64,000 nt of DNA from Solitalea canadensis DSM 3403 (GTDB taxonomy: Bacteria > Bacteroidota > Bacteroidia > Sphingobacteriales > Sphingobacteriaceae): positions 3,794,669 through 3,858,668 of the forward strand of contig NC_017770.1 of assembly GCF_000242635.2 (NCBI RefSeq), written 5' to 3'. The notes under the pieces are model-generated. The model had not been told where the DNA came from and did no database searches. It saw nothing but the letters and a program-made list of their open reading frames with translations. The translations under genes and the position numbers were made by a program. Below are positions 14,257 to 46,838 of the stretch, piece by piece. Numbering within the stretch: the first letter of the stretch is position 1; the number at the start of each line of letters is the position of its first letter.

Positions 14257-15186
14257 GGTAAAAAACTGCAACGCTATTATCGGGATAAACTCAGTGACTA
14301 CTCCCTTTGGGAACACAAAGAGAATGCTCGCAAGGGACTTGTCTTTGAACAGAATATGGGACCTTTTCTATCGATTGATGAAACCTCGCTCTCTCACGGA
14401 GAGCTCTATACGGTGGTGACTAACAAACAGGCAAAAGGGAAGGCAGGAACTTTAGTGGCCATTATGGAAGGCACTAAATCGGAAACGATCATCCCTTTGT
14501 TGCAAAAGCTATCGCCGAAACAACGCAATAAGGTACAGGAAATAACCCTGGACCTGGCGGGCAACATGAGCCTGATTGTCAAGAAGTGTTTTCCCAATGC
14601 CACCCGGGTGATCGATCGGTTTCATGTGCAGCAGTTGGCCACAGAAGCCTTGCAGGAGATGAGAATTAAATACCGCTGGCAAGCAATCGATGCAGAAAAT
14701 CAAGCAATAGAAGATGCTAAAACAGCCCAAGTAACCTACTGCCCTCCGGTTCTCTCCAATGGAGATACGCTCAAGCAACTGTTGGCCAGAAGCAGGTACC
14801 TCTTGTATAAAAAAGAGGATAACTGGACTGCCGAACAGGCCCAGAGGGCCAGCCTGTTATTTGAAAAATACCCCGATCTAAGAAAAGCCTATGAACTCAC
14901 TCAAAAATTATCCTGGATCTTTAGTACTACCACAGATAAATTATATGCTTTTGTAAGATTGGCCAAATGGAACGAACTGGTGGAACAATCGGGATTCAAG
15001 TCGTTCAATACCCTCTCCAGAACAATTATTAATCACCACCAACACATACTCAACTACTTCGACAACAAAAGTACCAATGCTTCGGCCGAATCGTTCAATG
15101 CCAAGATCAAAGCGTTCAGAGCTCAATACAGAGGGGTGGGAAATGTGAATTTTTTCCTTTTCAGGCTGGCTAAATTATATGCTTAG
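14257..15186 (+). CDS. ISL3/ISAon1-type transposase, catalytic part
   Basis: The frame is open from 14257, after a TAG at 14254-14256; the first ATG is at 14356. Residues before that ATG (LQRYYRDKLSDYSLWEHKENA) belong to the protein, so translation probably enters from upstream. The DDE triad of the ISL3 domain is visible: FLSIDETSLSHGELY (first Asp), RVIDRFHVQQLA (second Asp) and NASAESFNAKIK (Glu). A slippery heptamer A AAA AAC (14260-14266), in phase with the upstream +1 frame, would shift ribosomes into this frame by -1. The stop at 15184-15186 is just inside the right inverted repeat. Confidence 0.75.
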   Translation, partial: GKKLQRYYRDKLSDYSLWEHKENARKGLVFEQNMGPFLSIDETSLSHGELYTVVTNKQAKGKAGTLVAIMEGTKSETIIPLLQKLSPKQRNKVQEITLDLAGNMSLIVKKCFPNATRVIDRFHVQQLATEALQEMRIKYRWQAIDAENQAIEDAKTAQVTYCPPVLSNGDTLKQLLARSRYLLYKKEDNWTAEQAQRASLLFEKYPDLRKAYELTQKLSWIFSTTTDKLYAFVRLAKWNELVEQSGFKSFNTLSRTIINHHQHILNYFDNKSTNASAESFNAKIKAFRAQYRGVGNVNFFLFRLAKLYA

Positions 15187-36708: not shown

Positions 36709-38328
36709 TTATTGAACCTTTACATCAAATGCGGCAGAAAGTACTTTACCGGCCCGTTTTACCTGAACCCATATTCTATAATCTCCAGCAAAAGGAAATA
36801 CATATGGAAAATCAACCACGGCTCCTTCATGTGCCTTATGTGACGGATTAGCTCCACTCATATTCATTTCCTGCATAAGGTATTCATTTCGCACAGACTC
36901 ACTCATATTATCTAACCGATTAACAAGCGCATCAATGCTGTCTTTAAAATGTTTAGCATCAGGTTGAGGGGTATACCCAGTTTTTTTTTCGATCCGATTT
37001 TCTATAAGCTGTGCAGATGCTGCTGAAAAAGTCCCGGTTGGATGCAAATGAATGTACACTTTAGCGTCATTTTTTACTACTACTGCATGTCCACCCATAC
37101 CTAAGTAGGGTTCTAACTGAGCTGGATTACCTTCCGGATCTAACACCATAAAACTTAATTTTGAAATTTCACCGTTCTTAAATTTTAATCCGGATGTACT
37201 TTCTAAGGTCATGGAAGAACCATCAGCCAAAACTGTTTTTATTCCTGGTGTTCCACAAACAGTAAATGCGCTATCCATTAAAGCTTTTTTGCCTGCAACA
37301 GCATTCGAAAACAAATATGAATCATCACGACTTAACCCTATTGTAGTTCCTGAAAAAGGCTGTTCGACATCAATTGTATCAACAATAGTGCTTGCAAAAC
37401 CACGTCTTACAATGTCGGCAAAGATAAGATAGCGACCTTTTGGCAAGGCAGGCAAGGGACTTTCAAACGTTATGGAATCAATTCTTTTTGGGTGCAAATG
37501 AGCAAATATATCTAAGCTTCCCTCTCTCACCAGAAACAGGTGCATTAATTTACCATGATCAGGAATCAGCAAACTCATCCACCTGCCTTCCAACGAAGCA
37601 GTATCAACTTTAAACTCTAATAGCTCATTACCTCTTATATTTTTAATAGAGGAAGATGCAGTAAAAGGCTTAAACATGTATCGTTTGTAATCCTGTGCCC
37701 AATTATTCCACCAACTGCTTCCACCAAATAAAATAAGTCCTAGCACAACTGTTGTAACAGCCATTGAAACCCAGCGTTTACGTCTTCTTAATCCCGACAT
37801 TTCATTACCGGGAGCTGTAACGCCATCACTTACACTTGCTCCAATTATAGTAATCATTAAAATAACAAGAAATGACCCTAATCCAGCCAAAATCCAACCT
37901 AAGTTAGCGGGCATATCCTTTTGAGCTGTAGGAACTGCCATAATGGGAACAACAACCTCTCCTATCCCCTGATCTCCATATACGCTAACTCTAACACTTG
38001 CCACCCCATTTTCCATCAACCATATCAACCCTTGATAATTACCAGGAACATTTGGTGCCGGAATTGCTGTATCTGCATCAGGCGCACCCTCAGCTCCTGC
38101 ATACAAGTAAATTGGCTGCACAGTAACCTTTGTTGTATTGCCAGATTCAACCAGCACACTTATCTGTGCTGTTCCAGGAATAACATCAGGAGGCATGACA
38201 TTGACGATCACCTTGTATTTTCCGGCCATGCCCTCAAACAATATACCCGGACTTCCTATATGAGCAATAGCTGCAAAAGGGAAGATTAACAATATCCAAA
38301 TGAATATTATATTCTTACAAAATTTCAT
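36709..38328 (-). CDS. membrane-anchored His-rich two-domain protein, unknown function
   Basis: Starting at ATG 38328, which overlaps the upstream stop as ATGA, gives 539 residues; an in-frame start at 38349 is less likely. A signal/anchor (KFCKNIIFIWILLIFPFAAIA) leads into a beta-sandwich domain. Two membrane helices follow (about 148-170, 192-207), then a large extracytoplasmic domain. This domain has two His clusters: HLFLVREGSLDIFAHLHP and GHAVVVKNDAKVYIHLHPTG. Similar HLHP-type domains occur in actinobacterial and Bacteroidota proteins near metal-handling genes (recalled, not checked), so metal binding is possible. A late segment is rich in Met and His (EYLMQEMNMSGANPSHKAHEG). Translationally coupled to the polytopic gene at 38325-39548. 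Confidence 0.82.
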   Translation of the reverse strand: MKFCKNIIFIWILLIFPFAAIAHIGSPGILFEGMAGKYKVIVNVMPPDVIPGTAQISVLVESGNTTKVTVQPIYLYAGAEGAPDADTAIPAPNVPGNYQGLIWLMENGVASVRVSVYGDQGIGEVVVPIMAVPTAQKDMPANLGWILAGLGSFLVILMITIIGASVSDGVTAPGNEMSGLRRRKRWVSMAVTTVVLGLILFGGSSWWNNWAQDYKRYMFKPFTASSSIKNIRGNELLEFKVDTASLEGRWMSLLIPDHGKLMHLFLVREGSLDIFAHLHPKRIDSITFESPLPALPKGRYLIFADIVRRGFASTIVDTIDVEQPFSGTTIGLSRDDSYLFSNAVAGKKALMDSAFTVCGTPGIKTVLADGSSMTLESTSGLKFKNGEISKLSFMVLDPEGNPAQLEPYLGMGGHAVVVKNDAKVYIHLHPTGTFSAASAQLIENRIEKKTGYTPQPDAKHFKDSIDALVNRLDNMSESVRNEYLMQEMNMSGANPSHKAHEGAVVDFPYVFPFAGDYRIWVQVKRAGKVLSAAFDVKVQ

Positions 38329-39548
38329 CGCTGAACCCTCCTCATCCATTTACCCCAAAACAGTCCTATTCGTGATGATAAATAACCAAATGTAATTGCC
38401 TGTAAAAATCCTACAACCCATTGCTGAAGCGAATTTTTGGTCCATGGAGGAAACTGAAATCGATATTCCCAATTAGGATCATTTCCAAAATACCATGAAG
38501 ACTGACCAAAGAACCATGTTCTACCTATCGGATCCATGAGTACTTGGCCCATTAACCATTGTACAGGAAATAATAAACACAAGAACATAGCGATAATAAT
38601 GACCGCTTTTACCCAATCATTTTTGTCGTCATATTTAAACATTACCCAATCAATACCCATTGCTGGAATAATTAACAGCATTGGAAAATGAAATGCCTGG
38701 TAATGTGTTATATGATTAATTACCGGACCTAGTTTGGGTTCTGCATTAAACAATGGCAATACCCAAACCATTATGCACATAACCATTGTATAAATCAACG
38801 TGGCATTTGTAGCAGCCCATTTCATTTTTGAAGCTCTTGAAATTGCCACGAGAAAAAAGGGAAACAAAACAGCCGCTGTTTGATAATATGTTACAGAGTG
38901 CATATCCCATCTTGTAAAAGACTCTGAGAGCAACGTATACATCATTACAAGCATAAGGCCGGCTGCGGTTACAAACAACCATTTTAATAAAGTTGATCTT
39001 TTGTCGATTTCAGCAGTGGTTAATGTGGAGGATTGATAATCCCTGTTTTGTATAGCAAGTGTTCCTACCATCGCTCCAAACTGGACCATAATAATGCCTA
39101 ATGCCAATACACTGTGAGGAGGAGAAAGAATAGTTACGTCAAGACCATAAGTATTGTGCCACCAATCATCAAATGGCGCTGAGGTTAGCATTGCAAAGGC
39201 GCCCCAAATACTAAAAAGCGCTCCTAATGAACCATAAAAAATGCCCCAAAATTTTACACTACTATTTCTTTCGTATGAGGTGCCTGCAAAAGAAATCTTT
39301 AGAACGGTATAACCAGAAAAAAGCCCCGAAACGACTGCACCAAGATAAATAACCAAATGAGGGGGAGAAAGTAAGCCGTCGCGTCCAATGGATGTATGCC
39401 ATGAAATATCCCATATTAACCCTACAATCACACAAAGTGATGAAAACACCGTTGCGTAAATAAAGAAAGGAATATCCAAGAGCTTTTTTTTGAAACCACT
39501 GGTTTCATTAGTTACCGATAACTCTGGAAAACTGATAGTTGAATCCAT
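38325..39548 (-). CDS. polytopic membrane protein with duplicated H-x3-G-x-D...SPPH motif, unknown function
   Basis: The 407-residue protein has about ten predicted membrane helices. A motif occurs twice at nearly equal spacing: His51...Gly55-x-Asp57...Ser61-Pro-Pro-His64 and His131...Gly135-x-Asp137...Ser142-Pro-Pro-His145, each followed by a helix ending in LG. The repeats suggest internal duplication and two matching His/Asp sites at the membrane surface. Further aromatic and His residues are at 216 (WDMH) and 282-287 (HYQAFHF). I do not recognise a characterised family. Its stop overlaps the start of the partner gene. The upstream asparaginase terminator makes this a separate two-gene operon. 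Confidence 0.83.
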   Translation of the reverse strand: MDSTISFPELSVTNETSGFKKKLLDIPFFIYATVFSSLCVIVGLIWDISWHTSIGRDGLLSPPHLVIYLGAVVSGLFSGYTVLKISFAGTSYERNSSVKFWGIFYGSLGALFSIWGAFAMLTSAPFDDWWHNTYGLDVTILSPPHSVLALGIIMVQFGAMVGTLAIQNRDYQSSTLTTAEIDKRSTLLKWLFVTAAGLMLVMMYTLLSESFTRWDMHSVTYYQTAAVLFPFFLVAISRASKMKWAATNATLIYTMVMCIMVWVLPLFNAEPKLGPVINHITHYQAFHFPMLLIIPAMGIDWVMFKYDDKNDWVKAVIIIAMFLCLLFPVQWLMGQVLMDPIGRTWFFGQSSWYFGNDPNWEYRFQFPPWTKNSLQQWVVGFLQAITFGYLSSRIGLFWGKWMRRVQR

Positions 39549-39686: not shown

Positions 39687-39717
39687 AAACCGCCCCAGAT
39701 TTGAACCGGGACGGCTT
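39687..39717 (-). terminator. terminator after the isoaspartyl peptidase gene, with tRNA T-arm-like sequence
   Basis: On the minus strand a 12-bp stem (AAGCCGTCCCGG with CTGGGGCGGTTT, some G-T pairs) encloses the 7-nt loop TTCAAAT and runs into seven T. The CCCGG-TTCAAAT-CTGGG core looks like a tRNA T-arm, but no tRNA body is attached. Confidence 0.85.
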
Positions 39718-45449: not shown

Positions 45450-46838
45450 GGGTCTGTAAAATAAACTGTGTCAACCATTATTATTGTTATTGTTGAGGAG
45501 TTGGAATGTGGTAAACTCTTTTCGAGTTTTCCATATTTCAACACCTTTGTTTGTTAGTTCAAATCTAACTTCATTCTTCCATCAAACCAAATGGCCAGGT
45601 GAGAGGCGGTTTGGGCCCAGTTGGTCAGCGGCATGGTCCATTTCTGGCTGATGTTGCCATGGGCCAGATAAATCAATTTGATCAGGGCCGTGTCCGAGGT
45701 GAAGGCGCCTTTGGTTTTGGTCACTTTGCGTACCTGCCGATGAAAGCCTTCAATGGTATTGGTCGTATAGATCAAACGTCGGATAGCCACATCGTATTTG
45801 AAATACGTACTAAGCTTTTCCCAGTTATGGCGCCAGGACTGCAAGACCACCGGATACTTCCTGCCCCATTTCTCCTCCAGTTCCTCCAGCCGTAATTCGG
45901 CCAGATCTTTGTTTACAGCCTGGTAAACAGGCTTCAGGTCTTTCATGAACTCTTTTTGATCTTTAGAGGCCACGTATTTCAGACTGTTGCGGATTTGATG
46001 AACGATGCAGGTTTGTACTTCTGTTTCGGTAAAAACAGCGTTAATGGCTTCTGCAAAGCCTTTTAAGTTATCAATGCAGGCGATCAGGATGTCGCTGACT
46101 CCACGGTTCTTTAAATCGGTCAGTACGCCCAGCCAGAAATTGGCGCCTTCACTTTGCGAAACGTACATGCCCAATAGCTCTTTTTTACCATAACGATTGA
46201 TGCCCAGAATGTTGTAAACAGCCCGCGATACCACCCGGTTATCTTCTTTCACCTTATAATGCATGGCATCCAGCCAAACGATAGTGTACAGTTCTTCCAA
46301 AGGACGGCTTTGCCATTCTTTTATCTGCGGGAGGATCTTGTCGGTAATGGCGCTCAGGGTGGCGTGGGAGATGTCCGTGTCATACATATCCTTGATGTGT
46401 TTGGAGATGTCCCGGAAGCTCATCCCCAGGCCGTACATCCCCAGTATCTTAGACTCTAGGCTTTCGGCCAGGATGGTTTCCCGTTTTCGGATCAGTTCGG
46501 GTTCAAAGGTGCCGGTTCGGTCGCGGGGAGTCTCGATGGTCAGCGTTCCATCGGACGTTTTGAGTTGCTTTTGGCCTTTGCCATTCTTCCGATTGCCCGA
46601 GTTGCGTTCCTCCTCATCCAAATGGCCCTCTAACTCTGCTTGCAAGGCGGCTTCTAAAAAATGTTTCAGCAATGGTGCGAATGCCCCTTCTTTGCCGTAC
46701 AGAGACTTACCTGAGCGAAACTGCTCCAAGGCTTTCTTCTTAATAAACTCTAAATCAAATTCTGGTGTTTCCATAAAAAACTGTGTTAAAGGTCTTAATT
46801 CTTTCTAACCTTTGACACAGTTTATTTTCCACCCTCAC
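45450..46838 (-). mobile_element. IS256-family insertion sequence, 1389 bp
   Basis: The ends share an inverted core aaaataaactgtgtcaa (left at 45457-45473, complement near 46815-46831), preceded by degenerate outer bases. It is flanked by an 8-bp duplication ACCAGAAG (45442-45449 and 46839-46846). One intact transposase gene on the minus strand. It is visibly richer in G+C than its neighbours. It lies within the terminator shared by the moxR and S8 peptidase genes. Confidence 0.93.
45554..46774 (-). CDS. IS256-family (mutator-type) transposase
   Basis: The 406-residue protein is full length for the family. The DDE residues are Asp in VWLDAMHYKVKE, Asp in ACIDNLKGFAEAI, and Glu in TTNTIEGFHRQVRKVTK. 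CIVHQIRNSLKYV is the conserved C/H motif. The N-terminal region (NSGNRKNGKGQKQLKTSDG) precedes the catalytic domain. No frameshift or stop, so it may be active. Confidence 0.97.
   Translation of the reverse strand: METPEFDLEFIKKKALEQFRSGKSLYGKEGAFAPLLKHFLEAALQAELEGHLDEEERNSGNRKNGKGQKQLKTSDGTLTIETPRDRTGTFEPELIRKRETILAESLESKILGMYGLGMSFRDISKHIKDMYDTDISHATLSAITDKILPQIKEWQSRPLEELYTIVWLDAMHYKVKEDNRVVSRAVYNILGINRYGKKELLGMYVSQSEGANFWLGVLTDLKNRGVSDILIACIDNLKGFAEAINAVFTETEVQTCIVHQIRNSLKYVASKDQKEFMKDLKPVYQAVNKDLAELRLEELEEKWGRKYPVVLQSWRHNWEKLSTYFKYDVAIRRLIYTTNTIEGFHRQVRKVTKTKGAFTSDTALIKLIYLAHGNISQKWTMPLTNWAQTASHLAIWFDGRMKLDLN

Follow-up and report, generated by a model that had tools for sequence, protein, structure and literature searches.

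The gene pair and its borders

The locus lies on the minus strand of the window, i.e. the whole 64,000-nucleotide stretch of the Solitalea canadensis genome that was analysed, and comprises a gene for a polytopic membrane protein (TM) followed by one for a secreted, membrane-anchored partner (EXT). Both open reading frames were found as an earlier sequence-only reading had given them (407 and 546 aa, both minus strand), and the overlap of the TM stop with the EXT start in an ATGA was borne out (...CAGCGATGAAATTT...). M8 of the listed open reading frame, which has an AGGAGGG upstream of it, is the likely start of EXT.

38325..39548, minus strand: TM, polytopic protein, 407 aa, about 10 predicted transmembrane helices
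36709..38349, minus strand: EXT, 546-aa open reading frame as listed
36709..38328, minus strand: EXT from its likely start, M8 of the 546-aa open reading frame; secreted and membrane-anchored, ATGA overlap with the TM stop
39687..39717, minus strand: intrinsic terminator of the upstream gene, the upstream border of the pair

The neighbours, as named from their translations, are a fatty-acid gene cluster on one side and an asparaginase-like gene on the other. It had been described as an operon bounded by a terminator; the only strong terminator (39717-39687, minus strand), however, is that of the asparaginase-like gene and precedes the pair, and a search on the downstream side found none. No Pfam or NCBIfam model matches TM or EXT, a search of the PDB by sequence gave no match, and viral contigs and viral structures yielded no relative and no match, respectively. 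Two transposase-like open reading frames, judged as such from their translations, lie in the window at 14356-15186 and 45554-46774 and may bear on the patchy distribution described below.

Duplicated metal-site motifs in TM

The H-x3-G-x-D...SPPH motif is present twice in TM, at residues 51-64 and 131-145, as first reported, and the internal duplication is real, the profiles of hairpin 1 and hairpin 2 scoring 32.2 against each other (P 4e-6, z 8.3, 0 of 100 shuffles).

39045..39467, minus strand: PmoC-like core of TM, residues 28-168, four helices in two hairpins (hhalign against PmoC)
39357..39410, minus strand: site 1, D47-x3-H51-x4-R56-D57-x6-H64, matching the PmoC CuC site
39114..39170, minus strand: site 2, D127-x3-H131-x5-D137-x7-H145, at the position of the PmoC CuD site
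38337..39017, minus strand: C-terminal half of TM, residues 178-404, proposed PmoA-like region (Foldseek, with weak sequence support)

Conservation of the Asp and His residues of the motifs is 97% or higher across 85 homologues, and three actinobacterial homologues have all of them as well. The residues conserved at this level (at least 97% of the 85 sequences) are D47, W50, H51, R56, D57, P63 and H64 in site 1, and D127, D128, W129, W130, H131, D137, P143, P144 and H145 in site 2. Both motifs occur in order in 87/87 TM proteins and 7/7 PmoC proteins, and in 0/1216 background proteins, which were neighbouring proteins.

In the AF2 model of TM (pLDDT 87.1, pTM 0.88) the motif His and Asp residues lie at helix ends (helices 28-53, 62-88, 108-134 and 143-168), and by helix count the model would place all of them on the same membrane side. 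The loop charges broadly fit a periplasmic location of this side, and the charge bias suggests that both the N and the C terminus of TM are cytoplasmic (N-in and C-in).

Relationship of TM to PmoC

In Methylococcus capsulatus PmoC, the CuC site is formed by Asp156/His160/Arg165/Asp166/His173 and the CuD site by Asn227/His231/Glu237/His245, Arg165 being at the site with the ligands (PMC12576850). The M. capsulatus PmoC sequence used, the same as that of chain C in PDB 7ev9, has DGTWHQTIVRDTDFTPSH at Asp156-His173 and NEWGHTFWFMEELFVAPLH at Asn227-His245; the counterparts in TM are DISWHTSIGRDGLLSPPH (site 1) and DDWWHNTYGLDVTILSPPH (site 2). Thus D47-H51-R56-D57-H64 of TM matches the five CuC residues, D47/H51/H64 following the CuC ligand pattern Asp-x3-His-x12-His, and D127-H131-D137-H145 stands at the position of the CuD residues, where the spacing and the His residues of the Asn-x3-His-x13-His pattern are kept and Asn227 is replaced by Asp.

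Profile comparison by hhalign of 53 TM homologues with 7 PmoC/AmoC/HmoC sequences aligned the two motifs in a single match (score 36.4, P 4.3e-4); none of the 600 column shuffles reached this score (maximum 29.3) and the reversed profile gave 16.4. In a control against 80 real families TM ranked first (34.7, the next scoring 26.4), and overall z in the TM-PmoC comparisons lay between about 6.5 and 8.6, a score that no shuffle attained. For TM residues 20-175, z was 7.7 with PmoC and 1.3 with PmoA, and the six actinobacterial TM homologues alone gave 7.1 with PmoC. Taken singly, hairpin 1 matched the CuC segment (P 1.9e-6, z 8.6), and the profile match of hairpin 2 to the CuD segment alone was not significant; permutations of conserved columns gave 1e-5 and, for site 2/CuD, 1e-4, with segments that were picked after the match had been seen. 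Window TM does not match the Pfam AmoC model (PF04896). Two of the six actinobacterial relatives have that model as their top match, located at the motif (E 0.044 and 0.094), the relatives scoring 12.5-13.6 bits against a cut-off of 26.7.

TM and PmoC/AmoC/HmoC thus share the pattern D-x3-H-x5-D-x6-H followed by [DN]-x3-H-x5-[DE]-x7-H, together with conserved W, R and P residues and two transmembrane hairpins. The spacing between the two sites is 71-73 residues in PmoC and 80 in the window TM; it is close to the PmoC value in five of the six actinobacterial relatives (71 in L008, L176 and L177, 70 in L178 and L006) and 78 in the sixth (L007). By contrast with PmoC, TM is without the first two PmoC helices, has an extra C-terminal half, has no invariant Glu ahead of the first Asp, and scores under the Pfam cut-off. 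PmoC is absent among the best 50 Foldseek matches listed for the TM model. Judged from the sequence profiles, TM is very probably related to PmoC, the copper-site subunit of methane and ammonia monooxygenases. The pair had been said to match no described system, a statement that no longer holds for TM, which matches PmoC/AmoC at profile level, but does for EXT, for which there is no PmoB match.

When the TM model was compared with 350,542 PDB chains, the first-ranked match was PmoA (7s4h_B; E 0.035, probability 1.00, TM-score 0.56 by target length, rmsd 7), and rank 4 was also PmoA (9cl2_Ca). Since PmoA is the best PDB match of the whole predicted structure, TM may be a PmoC-PmoA fusion. Its C-terminal half is similar in length to PmoA/AmoA and has the FP-x10-D landmark in common with them; by contrast, in TM the region is fused to a PmoC-like part, and the sequence similarity is not significant against real families (z 2.5, rank 5 of 80 families). 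On balance we lean slightly towards the C-terminal half being PmoA-like.

The partner protein EXT

38263..38328, minus strand: signal peptide of EXT, predicted cleavage before His30 (cleavage site proposed)
37930..38262, minus strand: N-terminal beta-sandwich domain, beginning with invariant His30
37681..37908, minus strand: transmembrane hairpin, residues 148-223 (AF2 helices 148-174 and 186-223)
37366..37662, minus strand: module 1, with H265, M269, H270 and HLHP 284-287, conserved in 79-80 of 80
36712..37251, minus strand: module 2, with M418, H421, HLHP 434-437 and a helical insertion

The AF2 model of EXT (pLDDT 84) comprises a sandwich, a transmembrane hairpin and further sandwiches. The residue before the proposed cleavage point is A, S or G, and that after it His, in 80/80 homologues; H265, H270, H284, H286, M418, H421, H434 and H436 are likewise present in 80/80, and modules 1 and 2 appear as a repeat (z 3.9). 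The signal peptide, the transmembrane hairpin and the two HLHP motifs of the earlier description therefore stand, but its Met/His-rich 'tail' does not: this is the helical insertion (about 443-508), whose His residues are not conserved, M495 being so in 77/80.

EXT would be third in order, as PmoB/AmoB are; it has an N-terminal His after the signal peptide (the mature His of PmoB being taken from the alignment), and has a layout of sandwich, two transmembrane helices and sandwich with an HxHP motif. It differs in being longer, in having its HxHP motifs in the C-terminal modules and in two copies, and in giving no profile or fold match. PmoB-type cupredoxin domains with a CuB site were not found in EXT; the sequence profiles gave no match to PmoB, and Foldseek gives generic immunoglobulin-like proteins, with PmoB absent among the listed matches. 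A PmoB-like role for EXT would be an analogy, drawn solely from layout.

Matches to YtkA/FixH-like domains (PF13115, PF05751) were weak and below cut-off, in 5/49 EXT homologues (best E 9e-4) and also in one module relative from a cyanobacterium and one TM relative from an actinobacterium; EXT is unlike these domains in its HxHP pairs, transmembrane hairpin and N-terminal His domain. Free-standing relatives of the C-terminal modules (Gloeocapsa, Halomarina) keep the His pattern, and such relatives adjoin a metal P-type ATPase or lie near a four-helix copper protein and a ZIP transporter. In a cyanobacterium (L179:3923-4765) and a haloarchaeon (L180:3857-4594), a free-standing protein of two H-x4-H / HxHP modules is encoded close to copper genes; neither protein matches a curated family above cut-off.

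Distribution and genomic context

A scan of genome contigs gave at least 583 TM relatives; the 80 kept are all from Bacteroidota, and in 79 Bacteroidota loci EXT is adjacent to TM in the same order. The four genomes examined individually (L084, L010, L003, L085) all hold EXT, two of them in non-adjacent positions. Tandem arrangements also occur: L003 has two successive TM genes, and L085 has the order TM-EXT-TM. The distribution is patchy, since only 7/151 genomes of the window's own family have TM and three congeners are without it.

Distant TM relatives, several with a C-terminal beta domain, are found on actinobacterial plasmids; no EXT was seen beside them. One, from Streptomyces mirabilis (L178:5004-6437), gave a match to Acyl_transf_3 below cut-off in its middle helices (E 3.4e-5). 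For another, from Rubrobacter marinus (L009:6001-7022), the frame tried contains stops in the homologous stretch, which may reflect a frameshift or a start that was annotated wrongly. In Mycolicibacterium chubuense NBB4, plasmid pMYCCH.01 (L176, L170) carries a TM relative and a standard hmoCAB hydrocarbon monooxygenase operon about 165 kb apart.

A survey of neighbourhoods for copper or oxidase genes, of the kind proposed with the first description of the pair, was negative for the neighbour families listed for Bacteroidota and found copper genes near most of the actinobacterial relatives seen. In Bacteroidota, conservation of the neighbours stops at the genus, and no copper or oxidase genes are among the 25 listed of 72 neighbour families. 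Copper or cytochrome-assembly genes lie near the plasmid relatives L006, L007, L177 and L178, the copper genes near actinobacterial relatives including those for CopC, metal P-type ATPases, a metal-sensitive regulator, a four-helix copper protein, cupredoxins and a multicopper oxidase. CcdA/TlpA and CopY-type genes are near L176, little (YHS, CopY-type) near L008, and nothing clear near L009. This context is that of plasmid relatives, so the sample is biased; plasmids are enriched in metal-resistance genes. The proposal of a metal-linked membrane system is supported by the invariant His/Asp residues, the copper genes near most actinobacterial relatives seen and the match to a known copper-site motif. 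A heme or cytochrome reading was rejected, no CxxCH being found on reading either sequence, and weak, scattered matches to signal-peptide peptidase, ZIP and TctB were taken as chance.

Proposed function

The motifs, their duplication and conservation, the relationship to PmoC and the pairing in the genomes checked are computed results. From these, the pair probably forms a copper-binding membrane complex, for which periplasmic copper handling is the likeliest role and monooxygenase chemistry the chief rival. TM would combine PmoC-like copper sites and possibly a PmoA-like C-terminal half in one gene. EXT would take the place of PmoB in the pmoCAB order, as a secreted protein anchored by two helices, with a His at its N terminus and two predicted beta-sandwich modules carrying the H-x4-H / HxHP sites; most likely it would capture copper and hand it to the membrane sites, a function proposed for the partner. 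The handling role, which would comprise uptake, delivery or Cu(I) oxidation, is a possibility that we put a little short of even.

That the metal is copper, not another, is likely. Sets of two His and one Asp also suit iron and zinc, and the CuC site contained zinc in early pMMO crystals (PMC12576850), so that TM could be an unrelated 2-His-1-carboxylate membrane protein that has converged with PmoC on a metal hairpin; the similarity to PmoC nevertheless reaches the W, R, D and P positions and the spacing between sites, and together with the copper context in actinobacteria this makes convergence quite improbable. Genes for CtaG, COX III, TlpA or ResB/CcsB occur close to two of the actinobacterial relatives, as might be expected of an assembly or insertion factor for a copper enzyme, e.g. 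cytochrome c oxidase. Most sampled family members are without TM, however, including three congeners which, if aerobic like S. canadensis, still need oxidase assembly, and we consider this role improbable.

An active copper membrane monooxygenase for a small substrate, with C and A fused and B replaced, is the more serious competitor to copper handling, being unlikely rather than remote. It accords with retention of the CuC-type triad and the second-sphere Arg (R56 = Arg165), with PmoA as the best structural match, and with a gene order of C-A and then a B-like gene in 79 loci, in which the A and B identities are putative. Against it, the CuD Asn is replaced by Asp, EXT is without PmoB homology, no conserved dehydrogenase or electron-transfer genes adjoin the pair among the listed Bacteroidota families, and the actinobacterial relatives are mostly in copper-gene islands.

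Implications

Copper membrane monooxygenases (CuMMOs) are known from Proteobacteria, Verrucomicrobia, Actinobacteria, NC10 and archaea, Bacteroidota not being listed (PMC6215863, PMC9038741). A literature search, with most subscription journals and bioRxiv preprints outside its coverage, found no paper on CuMMOs in Bacteroidota, and neither a description of the TM/EXT system in the literature searched nor a family model was found. The results point to a widespread, unrecognised branch of the copper monooxygenase family, with a putative role. It is a minority prospect that this is a new CuMMO branch, with C and A fused and a replacement B, that oxidises a substrate in hundreds of Bacteroidota; those Bacteroidota are not reckoned among the organisms that oxidise hydrocarbons or ammonia. 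A distant family member that has the two PmoC site motifs but no recognisable PmoB would inform the origin of the family. The functions of CuC versus CuD are still disputed, and their roles could be probed in culturable Dyadobacter or Runella. The system would also give a functional lead for more than 580 unannotated genes.
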